Assembly (NCBI GenBank): GCA_947165145.1
Contig: CAMUZG010000005.1
Location: 1 to 64,000, forward strand
Direction of reading: 5' to 3'
DNA from: an uncultured Selenomonadales bacterium
GTDB lineage: Bacteria > Bacillota > Negativicutes > Selenomonadales > Selenomonadaceae
Length of the DNA stretch: 64,000 nucleotides
Under the pieces are notes generated by a model. The model was given only the letters and a program-made list of their open reading frames with translations. It did not search any database and was not told where the DNA came from. Shown here piece after piece: positions 34,966 to 55,778 of this stretch; positions within the stretch are counted from its first letter, which is position 1, and the number at the start of each line of letters is the position of its first letter. Both the position numbers and the translations under genes were made by a program.

Positions 34966-35739
34966 TTGCTGACGAAATTTTTTGAGACGATCGGCGCGTT
35001 CGTGATAAAACGTTTTGAGGAATTCGGCACGATAATTTTGCTGTACGTCGACACGATGAAGCAGCTCAAGAGCAAGCCGCGTATCAAGCACATTGTCGCG
35101 CAAATGTCGCATCTCGGCGTCGACTCGCTGACAATCGTCTCATTGACGCTGTTGTTCACGGGCGTAGTCTTCACGTTGCAGACTGCTCACGAATTTATTC
35201 GATTCGGCGCACAATCGACGGTCGGTGGAATAATTGCAATCGCAATCGGCAGAGAGCTTGGACCGGTTTTAGTCGGCGTAGTCTGTGCGGGTCGTGTCGG
35301 TGCGGCAATTACGGCGGAAATCAGCACGATGAAAGTCACCGAACAAATTGACGCTTTGCGCGTTATGGCGGTCAGTCCCGTGAATTATCTGATTGTCCCG
35401 CGCATGATTGCCTGCATGATAGCAGTACCGTTGCTCACGGTTTTCGGCGACATTGTTGGCGTATTCGGCGGCTGGCTCGTCGCAACGCAGTATTCGGGCA
35501 TCAGCTCCTACATGTTCATCAATTCGATTAAGATGTTCGCGAATATTTACGATTTGACGGGCGGAATGATTAAGGCGATTTTCTTCGGCAACGTGATTGC
35601 GGTGCTCGGTTGCTACTACGGCTTGAATTGTCCCGACGGCGCGGAAGGCGTCGGCAAGGCGACAACTAAAACCGTCGTCACGAGCATCATCGTTATCTTC
35701 TTCCTCAACGCGCTGCTGACGTTCATAATTTACAGGTGA
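34966..35739 (+). CDS. mlaE: MlaE-type phospholipid ABC transporter permease
   Basis: MlaE family: ELGPVLVGVVCAGRVGAAITAEISTMKVTEQIDALRVMAV. Confidence 0.93.
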   Translation: MLTKFFETIGAFVIKRFEEFGTIILLYVDTMKQLKSKPRIKHIVAQMSHLGVDSLTIVSLTLLFTGVVFTLQTAHEFIRFGAQSTVGGIIAIAIGRELGPVLVGVVCAGRVGAAITAEISTMKVTEQIDALRVMAVSPVNYLIVPRMIACMIAVPLLTVFGDIVGVFGGWLVATQYSGISSYMFINSIKMFANIYDLTGGMIKAIFFGNVIAVLGCYYGLNCPDGAEGVGKATTKTVVTSIIVIFFLNALLTFIIYR

Positions 35740-35776: not shown

Positions 35777-35949
35777 GATCAACTTTTCTTTGCATGCCCA
35801 AAGAAAAGTTGCAAAAGAAAAGGCACCTCGCAGGGGCGGTTACTCGTAAAACTAAGTTCGCCGTTTGATAGCCGCGAGGTGTCGCCTTCGAAAACATCCT
35901 GTTTTCTGGGCGACGTAAGGCCGACGTCCTGTCGGCCTCAAAGTTCGTT
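35777..35949 (+). repeat. Dispersed multi-hairpin repeat, copy A
   Basis: Matches the reverse complement of 55598-55778; hairpin arms CAACTTTTCTTTG/CAAAGAAAAGTTG, CACCTCGC/GCGAGGTG, GTCGCC/GGCGAC, GGCCGAC/GTCGGCC. Confidence 0.9.
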
Positions 35950-35963
35950 TTTCTGGTGATTTT

Positions 35964-36689
35964 ATGATTAAACTTATCAATGTAACAAAAAAGTTCGGGC
36001 AGAAATTTGCGCTCAAAAGCATAAACCTTGAGATTGCTGACGGCGAAACACTTGCGATTATCGGCGGCTCAGGCTCAGGCAAATCGACGCTACTGCGCTT
36101 GATGATTGGCTTGATTCAACCTACTGCCGGCGAAATTTGGATTGGCGACGACGAAATTTCCCGACTCGACGAAAAGGAAATGATGCGTGTCCGTCTGCGT
36201 ATGGGCATGGTCTTTCAATACAGCGCACTGTTCGATTCAATGACCGTCGGCGACAACGTTGCCTTCGGTCTCGTCGAACACACGAACTACAGCCGCGAAA
36301 AAATTCAATCAATCGTCCGCGAAAAATTGGAGCAAGTTGGTTTGGAAGGCGTGGAAAATCGTATGCCCAACGAACTCAGTGGCGGCATGAAAAAGCGTGT
36401 CTCTTTGGCGCGGGCAATCGCTTTTGGTCCCGAAATTATTTTCTACGACGAGCCGAGTAGCGGTCTTGACCCAGTCACGACGAACACAATCGACGAGCTG
36501 ATTATCAAAATGCAACGCACCTTGAACGTCACGAGCATCGTAGTAACTCACGATATGGTTAGCGCGTGTCGCATTGCCGACCGTATTGCTATGGTCTACA
36601 AAGGCGAACTCATTGCCGTCGACACGCCCGAAAACTTCAAAAAAATTGATGACAAGCGCATAAAAGCGTTTTTCCGCCTGATTGATTGA
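35964..36689 (+). CDS. mlaF: MlaF-type phospholipid ABC transporter ATP-binding protein
   Basis: IIGGSGSGKSTLLRLMIGL, ELSGGMKKRVSLARAIAFGPEIIFYDEPSSGLDPVT. Confidence 0.93.
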   Translation: MIKLINVTKKFGQKFALKSINLEIADGETLAIIGGSGSGKSTLLRLMIGLIQPTAGEIWIGDDEISRLDEKEMMRVRLRMGMVFQYSALFDSMTVGDNVAFGLVEHTNYSREKIQSIVREKLEQVGLEGVENRMPNELSGGMKKRVSLARAIAFGPEIIFYDEPSSGLDPVTTNTIDELIIKMQRTLNVTSIVVTHDMVSACRIADRIAMVYKGELIAVDTPENFKKIDDKRIKAFFRLID

Positions 36690-36701: not shown

Positions 36702-37544
36702 ATGTCTAACATAATCGACGCGATTATCACTCTCGTTAAAAGAAATCAATTTATTTTGATTGACTCAACCATGAGCAATAATCGGGCAAACAGTCGCGGC
36801 AATGCGCTTGAAATTTACGTTAAGGATCTTTTTGCTGATACTTTTAATCATTCGGAGATTGAACGATTGGAGAAATGGAGCAAAACTTTCTCGTGGCTCG
36901 GCAATAATGCAAATCCGCCCGATTTTATGTTGCAAAACGGTGACGCCGTTGAAGTCAAGAAGATTGAATCTCCCGACGTCGCGCTGGCATTAAACAGCAG
37001 TTATCCAAAACAAATTCTCAAAAGTTCAAGTCCGCTCATTTCAAACGCCTGTCGTGAGGCAGAGAATTGGGCGCAAAAAGATATAATCTACGCGGTCGGC
37101 GTTGTCGGTGGCGATAAGCTTAAACATTTATGTTTGGTTTACGGGCAAGATTATTGCGCGTCTGATGAATGTTACAGCCGAATTCGACAGAGAATAAAGA
37201 ACGGCGTCGAAACCATCTCAAACGTTGAATTTGCTCAAACCAGAGAGCTGGGCAGAGTTAATCGCGTAGATCCACTCGGAATAACTTATATGCGAATTCG
37301 CGGCATGTGGCACATTGAAAACCCGTGGAAAGTTTTTGACTATGTTTATCGGCGAAACTTTCAAGCAGAATTTAATTTCATGTGCATAATCAATGCCGAT
37401 AAGTGGGACCGGTTAGAAAATCGCCAAAAACTTATCGAACTTCAAAATCATTGCCCCGGTTTAGAAATTGTCGACGTTAAAATAAAAAATCCCGATAATC
37501 CTTCTAAACTAAAACCGGCAAAGCTCATTCGTTACGAAATTTGA
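36702..37544 (+). CDS. NgoPII-like type II restriction endonuclease (predicted GGCC)
   Basis: Recognised NgoPII-family sequence: NNRANSRGNALEIYVKDLF, GNNANPPDFMLQNGDAVEVKKIESPD, RVDPLGITYMRIRGMWHIENP. Confidence 0.85.
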   Translation: MSNIIDAIITLVKRNQFILIDSTMSNNRANSRGNALEIYVKDLFADTFNHSEIERLEKWSKTFSWLGNNANPPDFMLQNGDAVEVKKIESPDVALALNSSYPKQILKSSSPLISNACREAENWAQKDIIYAVGVVGGDKLKHLCLVYGQDYCASDECYSRIRQRIKNGVETISNVEFAQTRELGRVNRVDPLGITYMRIRGMWHIENPWKVFDYVYRRNFQAEFNFMCIINADKWDRLENRQKLIELQNHCPGLEIVDVKIKNPDNPSKLKPAKLIRYEI

Positions 37545-37553
37545 GGTGATATT

Positions 37554-38543
37554 TTGAAGGTTATCAGTTTGTTCAGCGGTTGCGGCGGTCTCGATTTGGG
37601 TTTTGAGCGTGCGGGATTTGACATTCCTGTTGCCAATGAATTTGACTCTTCCATTTGGCAAACGTTCAGATTTAATCATCCCAACTCCGCGCTTCTGACT
37701 CAAGATATTCGGAAATTGTCCGTTGATTCTTTTCCAAACGACATTGACGGAATTATAGGCGGACCGCCTTGTCAATCGTGGTCGGAAGCAGGTGCGCAAA
37801 GAGGAATTCAAGATTCAAGAGGACAACTTTTTTTCGACTATATAAGACTTTTAAAAGCCAAGCAACCAAAATTTTTTTTGGCGGAAAATGTCAGCGGTAT
37901 GCTCTCGAATCGCCACACGGAAGCGGTAAAATCCATAACGGAATTGTTCAAAAGTTGCGGGTATGATTTAACTATCACCTTAGTCAACGCCAAAAACTAC
38001 GGCGTAGCTCAAGAACGCAAACGAGTTTTCTACATCGGTTTCCGTCAAGATTTGGGAATTAACTTCAAATTCCCTTGCGGCTCAACCGAAATGGATTCAA
38101 AAAAATTGACGTTGCGCGATGTCATTTGGGATTTACAATTCACGGCAATTCCTTCGGCTGTCGGCAATTCTCATAACGAGCAAGCTGACAACAACAACGA
38201 ATTTTTCACGGGGAATTTTTCTACGATTTTCATGAGCCGTAATCGTGTAAAGTCGTGGGATGAGCAAGCTTTCACCGTTCAAGCCTCGGGGCGACATTGT
38301 CAACTGCACCCGCAAGCTCCCAAAATGGTTTTCTTTGGTCAAAACGACCGCCGCTTTGTGAAAAACAAAGAACATTTATATCGACGCATGACGGTCCGAG
38401 AAATTGCCCGTGTTCAAGGATTTTCTGATGATTTTAAATTTATCTATTCAAATGTTGATGATGCTTACAAGATGATTGGCAATGCTGTTCCCGTGCCGCT
38501 GGCATACGAAATTGCCGTTGCCATAAGAAAATATTTGTCCTAA
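37554..38543 (+). CDS. Cytosine-C5 DNA methyltransferase, M.HaeIII/M.NgoPII-like (predicted GGCC)
   Basis: [84 protein letters not shown]. Confidence 0.92.
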
Positions 38544-55597: not shown

Positions 55598-55778
55598 AAA
55601 AACTTTGAGGCCGTCAAGGATGACGGCCTTACAGTCGCCCCGAAAACGTGATGTTTTCGAAGGCGACGCATCGCGGTTATCGCAACGTGAACTTAGCTTT
55701 ACGAGTAACCGCCCCTGCGAGGTGCCCTTTTCTTTTGCAACTTTTCTTTTGGGCACGCAAAAGAAAAGTTGATCAATA
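55598..55778 (-). repeat. Dispersed multi-hairpin repeat, copy B (inverted relative to copy A)
   Basis: Reverse complement aligns end to end with 35777-35949. Confidence 0.9.

Follow-up and report, generated by a model that had tools for sequence, protein, structure and literature searches.

A mobile non-coding repeat with AnGGA hairpins and a predicted triple-helix pseudoknot between mlaE and mlaF of an uncultured Selenomonadales bacterium

In the 64,000-nucleotide stretch of DNA analysed here (the window), homologues of the permease gene mlaE and the ABC ATPase gene mlaF are separated by a non-coding element of about 175 bp, a second copy of which lies elsewhere in the window in inverted orientation (copies A and B; Table 1). 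Genes were called with a simple script based on codon usage. The interval between mlaF and an mlaD-like gene (36702-38543) holds a 280 aa ORF, possibly a restriction endonuclease from its translation, beside a DNA cytosine methyltransferase-like ORF (37554-38543, also from translation), and together they may be a restriction-modification pair that has entered the mla operon.

Table 1. Positions in the window of the mla genes, the flanking duplication and the parts of the two element copies
Feature	Position	Strand	Remarks
mlaE homologue (permease)	34966..35739	+	ORF; 58/60 same-genus genomes; named from the original prediction and operon order
CAGGTGA, left copy of duplicated target	35733..35739	+	End of mlaE
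Copy A of the element	35777..35949	- (probable functional strand)	Between mlaE and mlaF
Copy A arms, CAACTTTTCTTTG/CAAAGAAAAGTTG	35780..35792/35799..35811
Copy A S2 3' purine arm, CAAAGAAAAGUUG	35780..35792	-
Copy A S2 loop with S1 3' strand, GGCAUG	35793..35798	-
Copy A S2 5' pyrimidine arm, CAACUUUUCUUUG	35799..35811	-
Copy A L1, U-rich candidate third strand, UUUUCUUUUG	35812..35821	-
Copy A S1 5' strand of pseudoknot, UGCC	35822..35825	-	Family covariation
Copy A AnGGA-tip hairpin 2	35881..35914	-	Tip AAAACAGGATGTTTT on minus strand
Copy A AnGGA-tip hairpin 1	35919..35937	-	GGCCGACAGGACGTCGGCC on minus strand
CTGGTGA, right, slightly changed duplicate	35953..35959	+	mlaF ribosome site
mlaF homologue (ABC ATPase)	35964..36689	+	ORF; named from the original prediction and operon order
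Copy B of the element	55601..55774	+ (probable functional strand)
Copy B AnGGA hairpin, GGCCGTCAAGGATGACGGCC	55609..55628	+
Copy B second hairpin, tip ACGTGATGT	55634..55667	+	Without GGA
Copy B triple-helix pseudoknot (predicted)	55723..55771	+	S1 55723-55727, L1 55728-55737, S2 55738-55751/55758-55771
Copy B arms, CAACTTTTCTTTTG/CAAAAGAAAAGTTG	55738..55751/55758..55771

The original prediction, made from the letters of the window, described an inverted repeat whose stems differ by compensatory changes, and this description held. Copy B is 88% identical to copy A; its first stem carries one added base on both sides, and its last hairpin shows a paired swap (GGCCGAC/GTCGGCC in copy A, GGCCGTC/GACGGCC in copy B). 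Both copies fold better than shuffled sequences (z of -5.0 and -6.2). The stems had thus been read correctly, but it is probably the opposite strand that is functional. Two features had gone unnoted: the first hairpin forms part of a larger fold, its loop pairing with the GGCA that follows the linker, and the linker is a mirror image of the purine arm. The prediction was to fail if no further copies existed, which does not hold because at least 32 distinct places with a substantial match to the element were found in the genome of the window, an assembly of 1.94 Mb in 43 contigs that is 82.8% complete. All 30 of the copies that were fetched from it and aligned are full length, and they are mosaics of several versions of each hairpin.

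On the strand first read, an A-rich linker separates the first hairpin from the bases with which its loop pairs to give an H-type pseudoknot. In the alignment of own-genome copies, the loop and post-linker bases change jointly (TGCC/GGCA, TGTC/GACA, GCGCAC/GTGCGC), and 80% of 127 distinct copies have 4 or more bases of complementarity between loop and partner, compared with 19% of shuffled pairings. In a gapless alignment of 59 distinct copies, 4/4 pairs of this loop stem (S1) change on both sides across phyla, 97.9% of its cells are paired as against 48-57% with the partners slid, and its covariation score is 0.383 against 0.094 for shuffles. Covariation, the loss of which with more sequences would have counted against the original prediction, is therefore strong, and it supports the pairing of both S1 and the main stem S2. 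The selection on folded structure that the prediction proposed is supported, on a folded single strand. The central tract does not vary in alignment A1, having been fixed by the pattern used for selection. Visual inspection had suggested an outer stem closing the element through its 5' and 3' flanks, but this did not prove consistent.

The linker is a mirror of the purine arm, not a direct repeat of it. In 181 of 190 distinct copies, as many As follow the G of the arm as precede the G of the linker (mean of 99 and maximum of 118 under shuffling), whereas the direct-repeat rule fits 54 of them. These counts, anchored at the G, replaced a longest-common-substring test (mirror 72, direct 35, tie 109) in which the S1 pyrimidines probably lengthen the tract. 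Variants recovered through the Rfam family TwoAYGGAY (see below) obey the mirror rule by scan (TTCTTTT/AAGAAAA, TTCTCTTT/AAGAGAAA, CTTCTTTT/GAAGAAAA and TTCTTTTT/AAGAAAAA), and by eye shorter T tracts at these loci go with matching A tracts. One genome holds both the CTTTCTTT/GAAAGAAA and the TTTTCTTT/AAAAGAAA tract pairs. This parallel course of linker and purine strand is what a third strand would show. On the complement it would form a U-rich first loop lying parallel to the S2 purine strand, which is the geometry of a major-groove triple helix, and a helix of U.A-U and C+.G-C triples is accordingly predicted. To our knowledge, long pyrimidine-type RNA triplexes have rarely been described in bacteria.

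Several asymmetries indicate that the complement is probably the functional strand. Outside the Selenomonads, stem mismatches on the read strand comprise 25 A.C and 1 G.T, many of them in one column and so not independent, which places the wobble pairs on the complement. AnGGA hairpins occur on the complement in 30/30 own-genome copies and on the read strand in 0/30. They often read CATGGATG or ACAGGATGT, and in some copies, such as copy B, the second hairpin has no GGA. The Rfam TwoAYGGAY model matches the same strand in other genomes. The functional strand of copy A is antisense to mlaE and mlaF. That the strand acts as RNA is what we infer, as single-stranded DNA would show the same asymmetry.

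A pattern in which the stem and linker were set, and the loop and its partner left free, matched at least 120 stretches across genomes. Most were from Pseudomonadota, Bacteroidota and Bacillota, and other phyla contributed single MAGs. A Fusobacteriota copy (Ilyobacter) was recovered by similarity search, and the knot was not found in the phages or E. coli genomes searched. The most heavily loaded genome, G403 (98% complete), holds at least 63 copies by one pattern alone. Element length varies from about 175 bp here to about 105 bp in a relative. The searches started from a single tract, which leads to undersampling of the real diversity and overstates the invariance of that tract; clade structure further inflates the counts.

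The AnGGA hairpin tip is the CsrA/RsmA-binding motif. CsrA was found in 61/66 genomes of the genus of the window, its own included, so that host CsrA and AnGGA hairpins on the predicted RNA, as expected of a CsrA decoy, occur together. In a wider sample, the sampled element carried an AnGGA hairpin in 10/15 genomes with CsrA and 1/23 without it (Fisher p 6e-5, not phylogeny-corrected); the copy sampled had no such hairpin in the other 5/15 CsrA genomes. The association is clade-structured, the CsrA-less set being mainly Bacteroidota and Burkholderiales, and CsrA absence in incomplete assemblies may be false. Two Clostridia, one with CsrA and one without, fit the rule.

Among the known systems closest to the element is the TwoAYGGAY RNA (Rfam RF01731), which was listed as probably an RNA and neither cis-regulatory nor a riboswitch (Weinberg et al., 2010, PMC2864571). 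Binding of TwoAYGGAY by CsrA has been proposed from motif matches (PMC4333381). The two have in common a pair of GGA-tip hairpins on the same strand, with AYGGAY-like tips on one strand of our element, and many copies in some genomes (58 in G383). The Rfam search gave no match to any family at threshold for the window element or ten own-genome copies, TwoAYGGAY (gathering threshold 43 bits) included. In a strict scan, the knot follows closely on the 3' side, in the same strand, at most of the 30 loci found with the TwoAYGGAY model, and further loci have shorter or degenerate knots by eye. Two Pseudomaricurvus loci (L213 and L218) carry an insert of about 30 bp that interrupts the knot at an identical point in both. 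Four matches in Stenotrophomonas maltophilia (L203, L211, L216, L220) have no knot and a different outer stem, and are perhaps a separate subfamily. The element differs from the family as described in that the 168-position Rfam model stops before the knot in the matches examined, and in that the knot is also found without AnGGA hairpins, in genomes without CsrA. We know of no description of a 3' pseudoknot and third strand in TwoAYGGAY. In G383, a Halothiobacillaceae MAG, many of the matches (e.g. L217, L221) are clustered about 640-685 bp apart or in alternating orientation.

Comparison of orthologous sites bears on how the copies arose. The gap between mlaE and mlaF amounts to a few bases in most genomes of the genus (as in TACAGGTGACGCATG); the window and G029 have the element there, flanked by CAGGTGA/CTGGTGA and CAGGTGAC/CAGGTGAC, respectively. 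A second site holds different versions of the element in three genomes and is empty in G016. A third, between convergent genes, is filled in G021 and G403 (with TTCATTCGCTGA and GATTAAATC, respectively, on both sides) and empty in the own genome. Three places have empty orthologous sites, and two of them show duplications of about 7 to 12 bp when filled; together this indicates that the element is mobile, in keeping with the transposition side of the original prediction. The lengths of the duplications vary; they may have been made by insertion, or selected since they restore gene ends. The check for target-site duplications that had been suggested gave a mixed result, since flanking direct repeats of 30 own-genome copies showed no excess over shuffled pairings and most of these copies have no duplication. 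Y1 transposase (PF01797) had no match in the own genome or G403, and any match in 8/66 genomes of the genus; reverse transcriptase had no match in G403. Both were rejected as the mover, being absent from G403 with its many copies.

Other repeat arrangements were seen in the course of these searches. At two G403 loci (L268 and L278), the element sits between directly repeated stretches of host DNA of about 45-70 bp, in one case the end of the neighbouring gene. In Paraburkholderia (L098 5666-6086; L092; L131), two inverted knots without AnGGA hairpins lie about 350-480 bp apart and resemble the terminal inverted repeats of a longer element. The mlaE-mlaF junction carries other repeats (TTAGC-type arrays and others), often with AGGTGA on both sides, in several relatives (L044, L058, L059, L060, L055 and L069), and looks like an insertion hot spot.

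We favour, with slightly better than even confidence, a non-coding mobile element whose function lies in the folded form of a single strand, the complement. Read 5' to 3', this strand would begin with a pair of hairpins, one or both AnGGA-tipped, followed by a variable middle and an H-type pseudoknot. The U-rich first loop of the knot would run alongside the main-stem purine arm, parallel to it, and could form U.A-U and C+.G-C triples. The AnGGA hairpins would bind CsrA as a decoy or tether, and the triplex knot may stabilise the RNA end, serve as the handle of a mobility or processing enzyme, or both. This reading draws on the sequence-level record of dispersed copies, filled and empty sites, covariation of the pseudoknot and third strand, strand asymmetry and co-occurrence of AnGGA hairpins with CsrA. 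A broader proposal, which we put forward tentatively and regard as rather doubtful, is that of a class of mobile elements in several phyla in which the conserved triplex pseudoknot is the mobility handle and, where the host has CsrA, the copies together act as a CsrA sink spread over the whole genome.

The rival that survives best, possible although unlikely, is a passive MITE- or REP-like DNA parasite with no RNA role, for which the single-stranded DNA fold and the AnGGA tips would be a transposase signal. In its favour are the gains or losses, with short duplications, at orthologous sites, indifference to gene orientation, BIME-like inverted pairs in several genomes and the copy load of G403. 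However, neither the own genome nor G403 has a Y1 transposase, there is no fixed target duplication, and a dependence of the AnGGA hairpins on CsrA is not predicted by it. REP/BIME sequences with RAYT and IS200/IS605-type MITEs are likewise short, intergenic, palindromic and dispersed, sometimes as inverted pairs, whereas our element has a pseudoknot and third strand, is most abundant in genomes without Y1 transposase, and has no conserved GTAG foot in the own-genome copies.

The original prediction also proposed that the element could act in cis on the mlaE-mlaF mRNA, in processing or attenuation. The position between two genes of one operon and the stable hairpins speak for such a role, but it now appears very improbable: the genes adjoin tightly in most same-genus relatives, where the site is empty, and the mla mRNA would carry the non-functional strand. 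Copies are intergenic, in either orientation, beside unrelated genes, and precede some terminators and follow others. A cis role in mRNA was first suggested by the orientation bias of the own genome (18 sense, 3-4 antisense), but the bias is missing in the other sampled genomes of the genus (14 sense, 19 antisense), so that a general role of this kind is unlikely. Because copy A is an antisense insertion, its effect on mla expression is probably incidental. Still less probable is an H-DNA (intramolecular triplex) signal in double-stranded DNA. The purine tract of the element is a mirror repeat, the classic signature of H-DNA, yet H-DNA needs neither the inverted arm nor S1, both of which covary, and the strand-specific wobble points to one folded strand. 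The least credible reading, a strand-switch RNA in which the similar linker and arm tracts compete for one partner as two alternative, attenuator-like hairpins, is already disfavoured by the mirror rule and by S1 covariation.

With the one-strand mobile element as the preferred reading, its likeness extends to two further known systems. In telomerase-RNA-type H-type pseudoknots, a U-rich first loop parallel to the stem 2 purine strand is able to form U.A-U major-groove triples. The fold predicted for the present element shares this geometry; the element has no known homology to them, adds predicted C+.G-C triples and is a bacterial mobile repeat. Decoy RNAs of the CsrB/RsmZ type also present AnGGA-tip hairpins on one strand, but are one gene with many sites, whereas our element occurs as many dispersed copies with one or two candidate sites each and has the predicted triplex knot at its 3' side.

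TwoAYGGAY has so far stood as an orphan RNA family, for which CsrA binding was a published guess. To this are added a covariation-supported pseudoknot with a third strand, the mobility of related copies, the probable assignment of the active strand and a cross-genome test of the guess. The predicted triplex, common to Pseudomonadota, Bacteroidota, Fusobacteriota and Bacillota, lends itself readily to structure determination and prompts the question of which machinery moves the element. Literature searches on the literal sequence and the topic returned nothing. Two further Rfam matches were observed: a weak one to Bacillaceae-1 at 35870-35935 of the window (14.9 bits, cut-off 35), the reverse complement of which has also been proposed as CsrA-binding (PMC4333381), and a RAGATH-18 RNA (RF03064) above threshold at 2046-2107 of L115, a rumen Selenomonadaceae contig.
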